Positions 1,246-43,783 of a stretch of 44,419 nt of DNA are shown in pieces. This stretch comes from Thermoplasmatales archaeon (GTDB taxonomy: Archaea; Thermoplasmatota; Penumbrarchaeia; Penumbrarchaeales; Penumbrarchaeaceae). A program made the translations under genes and the position numbers. The notes beneath the pieces are model-generated. The model searched no databases. It was given only the letters and a program-made list of their open reading frames with translations, and had not been told where the DNA came from. The stretch lies in NCBI GenBank assembly GCA_030595715.1, contig JAUVCN010000010.1:1-44419 (forward strand). The letters run 5' to 3'. Within the stretch, counting starts at the first letter, position 1; the number at the start of each line of letters is the position of its first letter.

Positions 1246-3858
1246 ATGAGATATTTGATCCCTACCCTGTCCTTCATCCTTCTTGTGATACCTTTGTCAC
1301 TGGTTATCATCGATCCTGTCAATGGTCTGGAGGAAGGTGATCTGATCACAAGGATCGATCTCGAAGACAGCGATGGAGGAATCACCCATGGTGGTGATAT
1401 GGATCGATGGGAATGGGGTATTCCCGGTCCAGGATCCACCGAGAATCCCGGGCCCGGATCATCGGGTGAAGGTGAAAGATGTTTGGGGTCTCCTCTCAAC
1501 GGAACCTATCAAGAAGGAACCAGGTCATATCTCGATGTTCCGGAGATCGACGTGCATGATCACAGATATATCACAGTTACATATCTCATATGGTTCGACC
1601 TTTCCTTTCTGGATGATGAAAAGAACAGTACAGGTATAGGTAATACATCGGACCATTTTCTGGTACAGGTCAGGAACGATCCGGGATCCTGGACCACCGT
1701 TATGAACCACTCCGGTTCATCCGGAGGGGATTGGGTAGATCAAAGGATAGATCTTTCATCATTCAACATAGAAAAGTTGATCTTGAGATTCCTTCTCGTT
1801 GACGTTGAAGACGGTTCTGTTGATAATGGTGTCTTTATCGATGAGATCATTATCGAAGGTATATTGAGACCAGTTGTTGAGATCGAACTCTCGGAACCTC
1901 CTGAAGTTCCCAGGTTCATACCAACATGGGGAATATCCCGGATTCATTTCACTGTACTGAACGAGGGGATGATGACCCCTTCCGATTCAGAGGTATCCCT
2001 TTTGATCCTTGGACCCCCGGGATGGGGCCCATTTACTACTTCCAAGCCCATTTCCTCTGAAAGGATCTCGACCGATCACCTGGACTGGGAACCCCTGATG
2101 GAAGGCAACTATGAACTGTACTTAAACCTGACAGTGGAAGGTTCCCTTGGATCTTCATATCATTATCCGGTAACTGCCATGGACACAGTCCTGTATGATG
2201 ACATGTCGAACGGCCTCGATCACTGGAGAATAGACACAGAGGAGGGTGATTCGACCTGGTTCATCGAGGATGTAACTCCTGGACCTTCGACCACATCAGG
2301 TGAGGGTCATTTGCGGTTTGGATCGCCCGGTGGATCCGGGACATCGATCGGTTTTTCCGGAAATACCCACTCATACATCACCAGTCCGCTGATAGACCTG
2401 AGATTCATGGATAATGCCTATCTTTACATCCAGCATAGCTTTGGTTTCATCGGAGAACAGGGTAGTTGTGGTGGATCGGTCAAGGCTGTTGACCCCACCG
2501 GAAACTGGGTGACGCTTGAGTCGGACCAACCACATACCAGGATACTTAAGGAGGGGATATCCGGTCCGTTGGAGGGAGAGCACGCATTCCAGGGAGATAG
2601 GGACTGGTACCAGATAGGTTTCGATCTTGATGCGTTGATAGGCGATCATACCAGGCTAAGGTTCATTGTATCATCGGGTGAGACCGGGGAAGGAAGGGGT
2701 TGGTGGATAGATGATATCTTTGTAACAGGGGAGGGGGCGGACCCATTCGATACCGATCCTCCCGAACCTGTTCAAGGGATCAAAGTTGAGATCATCGATG
2801 AAGGTTGGGTGGAGGTGGAATGGACCCCTTCCTTTGCTCTTGATCTCGCTTATTACAATGTATATGTTGGTACCGGATCGGACGGGATCCTCAATACCGA
2901 TCTTCGGGTCCAGTTACAAGCTGAAAACGATACAGTGGTATCCTTCATGGACCTCGATCCTGAATTGTCATACTGGGTGGCAGTGACCGCAGTGGACAGA
3001 AGCGGTAATGAGGATCGTTCGGTGGATGTCATCAGGTTCACTCCATCTACAGGATCCGGGGATCAGGACCCTGTTGCCATAGCAAGGATCGTTGGAAGCA
3101 ATTATGGTGATATCGGTGATGAGTTCATATTGAACGGTTCCTCTTCTTTTGATCCTGACGGGGTTATTATCTCCTATATCTGGGACCTTCCGGATGGTTC
3201 CAGACTTGAAGGTAAGCAGGTAAGATGGAAAAGCAGCATATCCGGTGATGGCCTGGTAGTAACCTTGACCGTTCAAGATACCTCGGGGGGAATCGGGACA
3301 ACGAACGTCACTTTGAACATCAAGGATAGGGAGAATACGGATCTTCAGACCGAGGACCTGTACTCTTTCATTCTGTGCATGTCGCCGATCATCGTATCAT
3401 TGATAGTGATAGTGATACTCGTTGCATGGTTCAGACGATCAAGACAGAAGAAGATCAGAAGGCAACTCCTCAGAATGGGACTTGATGCCGACCCGTCCCA
3501 TGAGTATGTTCATGCAGAGATAATCGACACTTCCAGCAAGCAAACCAGAGGGTCGAGTGAAAAGAAGATAATGGATCTTGTACCAGTCCATACGATCCAC
3601 AGCCATAGATCCAAAAGTAAGGATAAGGAGAGACCTGTGGAGCCAAAGAAGGCTGCACCGCTAAAGAGCGTTCACAGGGAGGAAGCTGTTACCGATCGAA
3701 GTAAAGAGATACCCAGGGAGAAGGAGGTGTCCGCACTGGTCGAATGCCCTTTTTGTGGTAACTCCTTCAAGGCATCGGTCAACCGGGAGAAATTGATGTC
3801 GGGCGAACCTTTCGATATCAAATGTTCCAATTGTGGGCGATCCGGTCAGGTCGGTTGA
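1246..3858 (+). CDS. Large exported surface protein with MAM/FN3/PKD-like modules, C-terminal TM helix and cytosolic zinc ribbon
   Basis: N-terminal signal peptide; PKD-like GSSSFDPDGVIISYIWDLPDG; TM FILCMSPIIVSLIVIVILVAWF; C-terminal CPFCGNSF...CSNCGRSG. Confidence 0.75.
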   Translation: MRYLIPTLSFILLVIPLSLVIIDPVNGLEEGDLITRIDLEDSDGGITHGGDMDRWEWGIPGPGSTENPGPGSSGEGERCLGSPLNGTYQEGTRSYLDVPEIDVHDHRYITVTYLIWFDLSFLDDEKNSTGIGNTSDHFLVQVRNDPGSWTTVMNHSGSSGGDWVDQRIDLSSFNIEKLILRFLLVDVEDGSVDNGVFIDEIIIEGILRPVVEIELSEPPEVPRFIPTWGISRIHFTVLNEGMMTPSDSEVSLLILGPPGWGPFTTSKPISSERISTDHLDWEPLMEGNYELYLNLTVEGSLGSSYHYPVTAMDTVLYDDMSNGLDHWRIDTEEGDSTWFIEDVTPGPSTTSGEGHLRFGSPGGSGTSIGFSGNTHSYITSPLIDLRFMDNAYLYIQHSFGFIGEQGSCGGSVKAVDPTGNWVTLESDQPHTRILKEGISGPLEGEHAFQGDRDWYQIGFDLDALIGDHTRLRFIVSSGETGEGRGWWIDDIFVTGEGADPFDTDPPEPVQGIKVEIIDEGWVEVEWTPSFALDLAYYNVYVGTGSDGILNTDLRVQLQAENDTVVSFMDLDPELSYWVAVTAVDRSGNEDRSVDVIRFTPSTGSGDQDPVAIARIVGSNYGDIGDEFILNGSSSFDPDGVIISYIWDLPDGSRLEGKQVRWKSSISGDGLVVTLTVQDTSGGIGTTNVTLNIKDRENTDLQTEDLYSFILCMSPIIVSLIVIVILVAWFRRSRQKKIRRQLLRMGLDADPSHEYVHAEIIDTSSKQTRGSSEKKIMDLVPVHTIHSHRSKSKDKERPVEPKKAAPLKSVHREEAVTDRSKEIPREKEVSALVECPFCGNSFKASVNREKLMSGEPFDIKCSNCGRSGQVG

Positions 3859-4103
3859 ATCTTTCACTATCCGGTTGAATGCAAGATCGATGATATCATA
3901 TTGTTCTATACATGTGATAAAGATGTCAAGATCAACGCGATAGCTGATGTAAAGGATCTTTTCGGGAAAGCTGTGAGTTTTACAGTAGGTATCGAATCAA
4001 GGACAATAAAGGACAAGACATTCGGGAATAAGATCGACCGGTTTGTGAAAGAAGTAATGAATTGGAGATATTTCTACTGGTCGAATCGGTCCTTATCTGA
4101 TGT

Positions 4104-4913
4104 TCACATCAGCTCTCCTTTGATGGAAATCATCTCTTTGATCAAAGGAGTATCCTTGCCGGATAAAGTTATGGCCTCTTCGGCGATCCGGATCATTCCA
4201 CCACAGCAGGGAACCTCCATCGTGGCCACGGTGACCGATTTGATCCTATTCTGTTTGATGATCTCGGAAAGCTTCTCGATGTATGCTCCGGAATCATCCA
4301 GCTTAGGACAGCCCATAGCCACGGTCTTTCCGTGGATGAGCTGTGAGTGGAGGTTTGGATTGGCGGCCGCGACACAGTCAGCCAACAGGAGTAGATGTGA
4401 GTTGTCGAAGAAAGGGGCCTTGGGGTGGAGCAGATGGATCTGGACGGGCCACTGTCTGAGCGCGGATGGTAGATCTCCATCTCCGGATCCAACATCATGG
4501 GGGGCCTCGATTACGGTCATCTCTGTTCCAGGACATCCACACGGAGCCTCTTCATCCATATCCGGAAGGGAGATCCCTTTTTCTTCAAGGACCTCAACTG
4601 CTATGTTGAAATATCTGGTCTGAGCGTGGTCTTTCAGATGTTTCAGATGCGCTTTGATAACATTTGGGCCTGCCTTGACAATATTTTCCATGGTAACCCT
4701 TTCATCATATTCCTCGGCCTCCCTTTCGATCGTAGATATCGCACCCTGAGGGCAGGTTCCTATACATGCACCGAGTCCATCACAGAAGATATCCGAGATG
4801 AGATGGGCCTTGTCATCAATTATTTGCAAGGCTCCCTCAGGACAGTCGGGGATGCATTCTCCGCAGCCATTGCATTTTACATGATCGATATGTATGATCT
4901 GTCTAATTGCCAT
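4104..4913 (-). CDS. 4Fe-4S dicluster ferredoxin-domain protein
   Basis: CNGCGECIPDCPEGAL and ACIGTCPQGAI; later conserved Cys; start placed at MAIRQIIHIDH. Confidence 0.8.
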   Translation of the reverse strand: MAIRQIIHIDHVKCNGCGECIPDCPEGALQIIDDKAHLISDIFCDGLGACIGTCPQGAISTIEREAEEYDERVTMENIVKAGPNVIKAHLKHLKDHAQTRYFNIAVEVLEEKGISLPDMDEEAPCGCPGTEMTVIEAPHDVGSGDGDLPSALRQWPVQIHLLHPKAPFFDNSHLLLLADCVAAANPNLHSQLIHGKTVAMGCPKLDDSGAYIEKLSEIIKQNRIKSVTVATMEVPCCGGMIRIAEEAITLSGKDTPLIKEMISIKGELM

Positions 4914-5060
4914 CGGGATCACCAAGGTATCTTTTGTATACTGTGTAGATATTGGTTTTTATATTAATACTTGAGAGTTTCTGAAAGGATACCATGAGGT
5001 GATCTTTCGTTCTTTCATGGAATAGAGGGCCATATACAGTCCTAACTGGAAAGGTCTCGA

Positions 5061-5429
5061 TCACAAGGTGCAATCTTTACAATCGAGCCTCTCACAGACC
5101 TTGTTATCGACCTTCCATTTCAGGGACCACTCCTTGATATCCTGAATTACCTTGATGAATTCGAATCCCATCTGAGTAAGGGTGTAATCGGTCCTGACCG
5201 GAAAACTGGAAGTATCTATCCTCTTTGTAATGAATTGGTCCCTTTCCAATTCCTTGAGCCTGGTGGAGAGTACCTTGGGTGTGATCTCCCTGAGGCTTTT
5301 CTTGATCTCATTGTATCTCTTGGGTCCTCCGCCACCCCGATACAGTTCCAGCAGGATCACCATCGTCCACTTCTTTGCGACCATATCCACTGTTTTGTAT
5401 ACCGTGCATTGATCATCCATTGCTTCCAT
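5061..5429 (-). CDS. HxlR-family winged-helix transcriptional regulator
   Basis: CTVYKTVDMVAKKWTMVILLELYRG...RYNEIKKSLREITPKVLSTRLKELE. Confidence 0.88.
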   Translation of the reverse strand: MEAMDDQCTVYKTVDMVAKKWTMVILLELYRGGGGPKRYNEIKKSLREITPKVLSTRLKELERDQFITKRIDTSSFPVRTDYTLTQMGFEFIKVIQDIKEWSLKWKVDNKVCERLDCKDCTL

Positions 5430-5591
5430 TCAGATACTGTATACTATATATAATTAAGTATCTTTTTGGAACTTGATATTGAAAGTATAGTGTGGGGGGA
5501 CAAGAACATGTCAAGGGAACAGTTTCCTGCCAGTATTGTGAAAAGGACGTCTCTGATATTATTGGATGACAGAATAGAAAATAAAAAATTT

Positions 5592-42604: not shown

Positions 42605-42619
42605 ATTCTATGTGAGCTT

Positions 42620-42626
42620 TTTTATA
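42620..42626 (+). promoter_or_regulatory. TATA-like element (TTTTATA) ahead of the tRNA/fold-back array
   Basis: AT-rich box about 50 nt upstream of the first tRNA-5'-like repeat. Confidence 0.45.
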
Positions 42627-42664
42627 CCGGTTCAATAATCACTGGAAGTCTTCTCAAACGAATA

Positions 42665-42697
42665 CCAACCCCGTGCAGGGGTAGCTTAGCTTGGTCA
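42665..42697 (+). repeat. Direct repeat copy 1: CCAACCCCGTGCAGGGGTAGCTTAGCTTGGTCA
   Basis: Identical to copies at 42810-42842 and the tRNA-Leu 5' region at 42989-43021. Confidence 0.95.
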
Positions 42698-42784
42698 ATT
42701 CCGCAAAATCCTGATAGGATCTCGCTCAGGTTGTGAACCTTCGTTCCCAACCAAGTTCCTTTTGACCAAGTAATACCACCCCTG
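42675..42784 (+). ncRNA. Fold-back unit 1 carrying the 5' segment of tRNA-Leu
   Basis: CAGGGG/CCCCTG outer stem, CTTGGTCAA/TTGACCAAG 9-bp stem, internal hairpins ATCCT-GAT-AGGAT and AGGTT-GTG-AACCT. Confidence 0.55.
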
Positions 42785-42809
42785 TTAAGAAGTCATTCGC
42801 AAAATAATG

Positions 42810-42842
42810 CCAACCCCGTGCAGGGGTAGCTTAGCTTGGTCA
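42810..42842 (+). repeat. Direct repeat copy 2
   Basis: Same 33-nt sequence as copies 1 and 3; upstream TCATTCGCAAA also shared with copy 3. Confidence 0.95.
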
Positions 42843-42962
42843 CAGCCCTTTGCGACTTCGTCCCAAAGCGTTGGCGGAATTGGCCGGTTGAGTTACAACC
42901 GACCTAAAGCGCATAACCTTGAACAAGGTTCAAGGGCGCTTTTGACCATCTGAGGTCCCCTG
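42820..42962 (+). ncRNA. Fold-back unit 2 carrying the 5' segment of tRNA-Leu
   Basis: CAGGGG/CCCCTG, TGGTCA/TGACCA, CGGTTG-AGTTA-CAACCG, AAAGCGC/GCGCTTT, AACCTTG-AA-CAAGGTT. Confidence 0.58.
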
Positions 42963-42998
42963 TTTGGAAAATCATTCGCAAATAGATACCAACCCCGT

Positions 42999-43082
42999 GC
43001 AGGGGTAGCTTAGCTTGGTCAAAAGCGCTGGATTCAGAGTCCAGTCCTTAGTGGTTCGAGGGTTCAAATCCCTTCCCCTGCA
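42999..43082 (+). tRNA. tRNA-Leu (anticodon CAG), class II
   Basis: GCAGGGG/CCCCTGC acceptor; GCTT/AAGC D-stem; CTGGA-TTCAGAG-TCCAG anticodon arm; long variable region; GAGGG-TTCAAAT-CCCTT T-arm; no encoded CCA. Confidence 0.92.
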
Positions 43083-43085
43083 CTT

Positions 43086-43312
43086 ATCCCATTCTACTAA
43101 ATTGTTAAAAATCTAAGAATGGGATCTGCAGGATGAAGCTTGGGATTTGAACCTTGGTCTTCGAAACATCACAAGCTCACTATGTTTCGAAGTGCGAACA
43201 ATTTCCGAACGGCTATGGAGAGAGGAGATTGCTTCTGCATCTTGAATTATTGCAAATGATTCAAGACAGACAAAATCTTTGATTTTGGCGATGTCAAATC
43301 CCTTCTCCCGCA
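43086..43312 (+). ncRNA. Hairpin-rich region 3' of tRNA-Leu containing an antisense copy of the T-arm and a degenerate tRNA 3' end
   Basis: ATCCCATTCT/AGAATGGGAT; GGGATTTGAACC (rc of T-arm); CTTCGAAACAT/ATGTTTCGAAG; TCTTGAAT/ATTCAAGA; CAAAATC-TTT-GATTTTG; ends TCAAATCCCTTCTCCCGCA. Confidence 0.5.
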
Positions 43313-43370
43313 CTTCTTTCCCTTCGTCATTTATGATCAAATCGGAAAGAAGTGCTCTACGTTAAATACA

Positions 43371-43481
43371 TACGACCAAAAATGCTATTATGAAATTATT
43401 GCCGTTTTTGGTCTCAGGTATGAAGTTTGGTTTATCGTCAAATAAATGACAACTTCATACCTCCCTTCCCCTGCACCATTC
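43371..43481 (+). ncRNA. 111-nt structured repeat, copy A, ending in tRNA-Leu-like 3' end plus CCA
   Basis: GACCAAAAA/TTTTTGGTC and GGTATGAAGTT/AACTTCATACC stems; ends TCCCTTCCCCTGCACCATTC. Confidence 0.68.
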
Positions 43482-43534
43482 ACTTTTCGTCAATATCAAA
43501 TGATCGCAGTGAATGGTGCGTGACATTGATTATA

Positions 43535-43645
43535 TACGACTAAAAATGCCATTATGAAATAACTGTCGTTTTTAGTCTCAGGTATGAAGTTTGGTTTATC
43601 GTCACATGTATGACAACTTCATACCTCCCTTCCCCTGCACCATTC
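43535..43645 (+). ncRNA. 111-nt structured repeat, copy B
   Basis: 9 differences from copy A; stem GACTAAAAA/TTTTTAGTC is compensatory relative to copy A. Confidence 0.68.
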
Positions 43646-43783
43646 TTGTCCCTTATTCATTTTATATCCGGAGTAGGAGAAGGTTCATTTGAGTTGCTAT
43701 TTATCACCATACCAGCATTGCAGGAGGCCTTGGAAGAGAGTTATTGGAATGGACGTTAAAGGAAAAGAGAAAGGGTTGGAAAA

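Follow-up and report, generated by a model that had tools for sequence, protein, structure and literature searches.

The window, the whole 44,419-nt stretch of DNA that was analysed, lies in the genome assembly, 3.07 Mb in 197 contigs, of an uncultured archaeon. The best matches of its V-ATPase A, at 65%, are to two MAGs of Thermoplasmata/Thermoplasmatota, which makes that phylum probable; a neighbour-protein search yielded no further match. Positions 42675–43640 of its forward strand hold an array in which an intact tRNA-Leu(CAG) gene (42999–43083; ARAGORN, and Rfam RF00005 with 58.5 bits) is preceded by two structured units and followed by three. As the sequence-only reading of this DNA had claimed, about 1 kb here is devoid of a credible ORF, none of ≥100 aa being found within about 42605–43700, and the tRNA and Rfam check it had proposed returned the tRNA as the sole known RNA of the array. 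A TATA-like candidate promoter, TTTTTTATACC, is predicted from the sequence at 42618–42628 on the same strand, upstream of the whole array.

Both upstream units open with an exact copy of nt 1–23 of the tRNA and close with an approximate reverse complement of the 5′ segment, the arrangement that the earlier reading had described. Unit A (42675–42784) runs from the nt 1–23 copy (42675–42697) through a hairpin core to an inverse 5′-segment copy (42761–42784) that is 78–81% complementary. Unit B (42820–42962) contains its nt 1–23 copy at 42820–42842, a branched structured core, and the inverse 5′ segment at 42936–42962. The remaining exact occurrence of nt 1–23, at 42999–43021, is the tRNA itself. 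A ~30-nt leader, found by repeat search at 42645–42674, 42790–42819 and 42969–42998, extends these segments to a 53-nt repeat whose copies are 83–100% identical. In the same genome, tRNA-Leu(GAG) is preceded by a unit related to A (L030), and relatives of B precede tRNA-Leu genes there and in two other genomes (L031, L035, L045).

Each of the three downstream units terminates with a tRNA 3′-end copy, also as previously read. Unit C (43084–43313) comprises a trailer hairpin, an inverse copy of the tRNA 3′ end (43127–43153), core hairpins including AAAATC-TTT-GATTTT, and a 3′-end copy (43294–43313). Units D (43310–43476; 3′-end copy 43462–43476) and E (43473–43640; 3′-end copy 43626–43640) are tandem copies, 88% identical, of what we call type D: hairpin 1, whose 12-bp stem starts with the tRNA’s GCAC, then a linker and hairpin 2, then hairpin 3 with its 12-bp stem and CGTCAA-containing 23-nt loop, and lastly the 3′-end copy. 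The proposed mirroring of the upstream layout holds for the 3′-end copies of C, D and E, but among these units a long inverse copy is confined to C; in D and E the inverse 3′-end sequence amounts to GTGC and a few flanking bases within hairpin 1. Folding energies, computed for the stretches of units A, B, C and E against dinucleotide shuffles, gave z-scores of –5.8, –5.4, –4.7 and –5.6, respectively, with 0 of 200 shuffles as good. An isolated AAAATC-TTT-GATTTT hairpin module also occurs away from any tRNA in genome G000 (contig C38, ~10896; L033 2397–2425), beside small ORFs that are RelE-like and HTH-like by eye.

The idea of a symmetric organisation around one tRNA was right about the array and too narrow in scope, as units occur at many isotypes genome-wide. 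Flanks of testable tRNAs were searched for end copies at a fixed score threshold and compared with shuffled flanks. In the window’s own genome, a downstream 3′-end copy was found at 11 of 25 tRNAs, an inverse copy at 10 of 25, and an upstream 5′ copy at 4 of 28. The corresponding counts were 12/24, 7/24 and 1/28 in a genome of the same family (G003), 12/29, 7/29 and 4/30 in one from family f10 of the same phylum (G017), 3/27, 0/27 and 2/26 in one of the same class (G010), and 0/29, 2/29 and 0/29 in a distant control genome, complete in one contig (G025). Shuffled flanks gave ~0 tRNAs with copies, at 0.001 chance matches per segment-flank search. About 40–50% of the tested tRNA genes in three genomes carry structured units partly built from their own ends; the isotypes in the window’s genome are Val, Asn, Met, Ile, Gly, Arg, Glu, Gln, Leu, Asp, Ser and Thr. 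Hairpins near tRNAs are far denser than in coding DNA and prefer loops of 3 nt and 18–25 nt. The genome-wide family of tRNA-end fold-back elements is genuine.

Contigs C46, C81, C89, C118, C125, C150 and C163 of G000 terminate ≤~300 bases from a tRNA gene. The arrays probably interrupt assembly there, as repeats would, and arrays of this kind may account for contig breaks at tRNA genes. In genome G002, ~95 nt 3′ of tRNA-Leu(UAA) and tRNA-Leu(CAG) are near-identical before the sequences diverge (L036, L045), which points to exchange between tRNA loci.

The end copies match the tRNA beside which they lie. The resident tRNA was the best or tied match for 35 of 37 significant direct 3′-end copies, and with swapped flanks the ends of other isotypes reached the same score in about 1%. 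Duplication borders are sharp, running from the T-loop (–18/–14) to the discriminator (+1) at 53 loci on the 3′ side (14–19 bp), and from nt 1 to ~nt 22 in the D-loop at 15 loci on the 5′ side (~22 bp). Over positions –12 to –1, end copies are about 96–100% identical to the tRNA while the cores diverge; the copies are therefore under selection or undergoing homogenisation. The terminal copies derive from the resident tRNA.

Shuffled and swapped flanks rule out chance palindromes. An origin as tRNA pseudogenes left by integrating phages or ICEs is ruled out as well, since the units are short and non-coding and match the isotype at many tRNAs. Integrative elements that target tRNAs through tyrosine recombinases likewise exploit tRNA ends and leave part of a tRNA behind as a copy, but the present units are 110–230 nt long and non-coding, and since related cores carry isotype-matched ends at many isotypes, a fixed attP cannot explain them. 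Annotation should therefore avoid labelling such copies as tRNA pseudogenes or ordinary att sites.

The covariance-model search that had been proposed found type D units kept and structured in relatives, downstream of tRNAs. Model R1, built from nine in-register sequences and scoring units D and E at 119 and 118 bits (43310–43640), detected type D in at least 13 of 293 phylum genomes: all 8 genomes of the family, both order-mates, two of f10 and one of f20, four families in all. The other 280 had no R1 match under strict filters. These counts are lower bounds, because the filters were strict and at most nine candidates per genome were scored. Among the matches listed, some of them overlapping, the unit lies on the tRNA strand and directly downstream in 25 of 25 loci with a recognised tRNA. 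Across 44 distinct sequences, 94.2% of cells are paired and all 34 pairs show two-sided changes (434 cells vs. 116 in shuffles), and partners slid out of register pair in <50%; this alignment was fitted to the model, and an independent MAFFT alignment of the nine gives the same picture. The motifs CGTCAA and ACGMTRAAAA of loops and linkers and the fixed 12-bp/23-nt geometry are conserved over four families. The sequence-only reading had named the lack of any conserved unit in relatives as the outcome that would count against it; because units are conserved and structured there, that is not what was seen.

In a tree of type D cores, genome labels change 18 times vs. 29.7 in shuffles (0 of 200 as low), although many forks are weak. 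Units group by genome over isotypes: those at Leu, Ala and Asp tRNAs of the window’s genome fall together, as do those at Leu and Gly of G002. The cores would therefore have spread among unrelated tRNA genes, with their ends following the host tRNA; alternatively, gene conversion between arrays could likewise yield clustering by genome.

Type D arrays were also seen with no tRNA nearby. One in G000 (contig C155; L289 10165–10508) has ends of the tRNA-Glu(CTC) type and adjoins an IS1595-family transposase, and another lies in G017 (contig C18; L282 8421–8571).

One pair of genomes in a single genus offers a filled and an empty site: the 5′ side of tRNA-Leu(CAG) is empty in G003 and holds unit B in G007. 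In the latter, unit B sits between the tRNA and a shared promoter, TTATAAATAG, which is the ortholog of the window’s promoter candidate. From this position unit B should therefore be part of the transcript, and the units, lying inside the tRNA transcription unit, are probably co-transcribed with the tRNA.

If the pairing were selected as RNA, G.U should be accepted more readily than A.C. The acceptor stems of tRNAs in these genomes had 18 G.T vs. 0 A.C mismatches. By comparison, 218 large-loop hairpins had 13 G.T vs. 12 A.C, and the type D alignment 28 vs. 24. As G.U shows no excess over A.C in these two sets, the pairing looks DNA-level or arm-copied rather than selected as RNA alone; on these small mismatch counts, and with small-loop hairpins at 10 vs. 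4, it is probably kept or made at the DNA level, or by one arm templating the other.

We propose, with a probability of about 0.5, that the array consists of stacked repeat elements, short and non-coding, which insert at tRNA gene ends and leave the tRNA intact. Copies of the tRNA 3′ end (T-loop to discriminator) bound each downstream unit on both sides, and copies of nt 1 to ~22 do so for each upstream unit; related cores occur at unrelated isotypes, and an orthologous empty site exists. Of the origins that the sequence-only reading had offered, remnants of tRNA-targeting mobile elements are best supported, by the target-matched end copies, the clustering of cores by genome and the filled and empty sites, and the elements are probably mobile. 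A structured core with conserved hairpin loops would be placed into a tRNA end and duplicate that end, often leaving an inverse copy too, and arrays would grow through further insertions and tandem duplication. Hairpin arms may be held matched at the DNA level by hairpin or cruciform recognition or by templated correction, and RNase P and tRNase Z may excise co-transcribed units at the tRNA-end copies, as has been reported for E. coli rtT RNA. Against insertion of such elements stand the conservation of hairpin 1 and 3 geometry and loops over four families, which also fits a functional RNA, the near-identity of end copies to the tRNA beside diverging cores, and the alternative of gene conversion between arrays. 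Among 13 type D carriers, a search for candidate mobilisers found Cas1 in 2, a Y1 transposase (PF01797) in 1 and a reverse transcriptase (PF00078) in 2, a presence pattern that misfits the carriers, led us to reject all three and likewise counts against the proposal. A viral source was likewise rejected, the type D linker motif having no exact match in IMG/VR.

The units may instead be functional small RNAs made with tRNA processing signals, RNase P cutting the nt-1 copies and tRNase Z the 3′-end copies, to release RNAs of ~110–230 nt that act in trans (in stress or tRNA quality control) or compete with tRNA ends. This is possible, though we hold it to be somewhat unlikely. The type D covariation fits such RNAs well, as do the placement of units on the tRNA strand and of unit B behind the promoter, and RtT RNAs are described as freed from tRNA transcripts in tRNA processing (PMC4986893). 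Processed non-coding RNAs, which the sequence-only reading had also suggested, would be in keeping with duplicated segments that start and stop at mature tRNA ends and with the location of the units within the tRNA transcription unit. The lack of a G.U excess in stems speaks against them, and so does the patchy presence of units at orthologous tRNAs, with type D confined so far to the carriers counted above.

More speculatively, and we think improbably, the units could be mobile elements of a new class, which would acquire their termini by copying the tRNA on which they land, possibly via tRNA transcripts or fragments, and reside in pre-tRNA transcripts at both gene ends, with rtT as a bacterial relative in kind. 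The tRNA-fragment route is suggested because the duplicated ends (nt 1 to D-loop; T-loop to discriminator) are shaped like tRNA 5′ and 3′ fragments.

It is decidedly doubtful that the units are quasi-palindromes formed by template switching, with neither element nor function. On that view, stalling of replication forks at tRNA genes would let nascent strands turn back on themselves and copy the ends of the tRNA, and recombination would then maintain the likeness of arms and of copies. Near-perfectly matched arms with symmetric mismatches, inverse copies of the resident tRNA and the tandem copies D and E would all follow from such events. However, a single core type is found at many isotypes, and the conserved loops and linkers and fixed geometry over four families need a shared ancestral core; pure template-switch debris, an origin raised earlier, fails to explain these or the relatives in four families.

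Least probable, and very unlikely in our view, is that Cas1 or a Y1 transposase moves the units as non-autonomous miniature elements of a casposon-like or IS200/REP-like kind: family 2 casposases target tRNA genes, and the A. boonei enzyme requires TCAAATC, T-loop-like as here, and makes a 14-bp duplication beside tRNA-Pro (PMC6614799), close to our 14–19 bp, but Cas1 occurs in 2 and Y1_Tnp in 1 of 13 carriers, 5′ duplications are ~22 bp, and no terminal inverted repeats were seen beyond target-derived ones. Serial insertion at a fixed end, duplications of 14–19 bp and tRNA 3′ ends as targets do recall casposons and CRISPR arrays, in which Cas1 integrates by the leader and the repeat is duplicated; the 14–15-bp casposon duplication is similar in size to ours at the 3′ end (–14/–18 to +1) but not at the 5′ end. 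Unlike in those systems, Cas1 is absent from most carriers, the inserts are related structured cores rather than spacers, and no casposon genes were seen here. REP/BIME palindromes (RAYT) share the short palindromic intergenic format and variable stems, but the present units differ by their 18–25-nt loops and tRNA-end copies, and by the absence of a Y1 transposase from most carriers.

The earlier statement that no named family has this layout holds, apparently, for the upstream mirror; the downstream half has a named relative with the same order of parts, E. coli rtT (RtT, rttR; RF00391). In the tyrT/tyrV operon of K-12, tRNA 3′-end copies lie at +159, +337 and +515 downstream of tyrV, in tandem ~178-nt units that each close with an exact 19-nt copy. 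An inverse copy, GGGGAAGGAT, precedes the core; it was read by eye and was not flagged by the thresholded inverse-copy search. Both systems share the order END – linker – inverse END – core – END, and the downstream units here are likewise tandem and end in a tRNA 3′-end copy; the inverse copy before the core is present in unit C and at many other tRNAs, and absent from type D. RF00391 had no match in the window, with a tool that scores E. coli rtT at 134–138 bits. The K-12 stretch represents one locus and one tRNA with no 5′ mirror units seen, whereas the archaeal units occur genome-wide at many isotypes and on both sides. In Actinobacillus, RtT RNAs are also reported as annotated close to tRNA genes for Asn and Lys (PMC4986893). 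Our literature search found no published description of these tRNA-end units; neither their mirrored upstream form nor their target-matched spread through whole genomes seems to have been described.

The units look like a spreading repeat family, related in layout to rtT, that uses tRNA genes as safe, transcribed homes. The E. coli curiosity would then become one case of a wider phenomenon, and whether such repeats are selfish pre-tRNA passengers or RNAs made by tRNA enzymes becomes testable with many natural replicates. Among E. coli genomes, the number of places with an rtT core ranges from 1 to 10, with a median of 3; 18 places are on plasmids, and 718 of 5426 genomes have no match.

Integron attC cassettes resemble the units in having hairpin-forming sites with variable stems; they differ in that nearly all units here are non-coding and the conserved ends are tRNA ends. 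An array in G028 (contig C31; L265 2547–5671), on a part of the contig without a tRNA, does resemble gene-bearing cassettes. Genes for an OmdA/YdeI-like protein (3498–4055) and a zinc dehydrogenase (4490–5446) alternate there with type D pieces and with Leu-type 3′-end copies, which lie at 3346, 4192 and 4356; a NACHT-FGE protein and a GATase are encoded upstream. Elsewhere in the window, and in keeping with an archaeal source, positions 364–416 encode the C/D box sRNA sR41 (RF01126, 61 bits).
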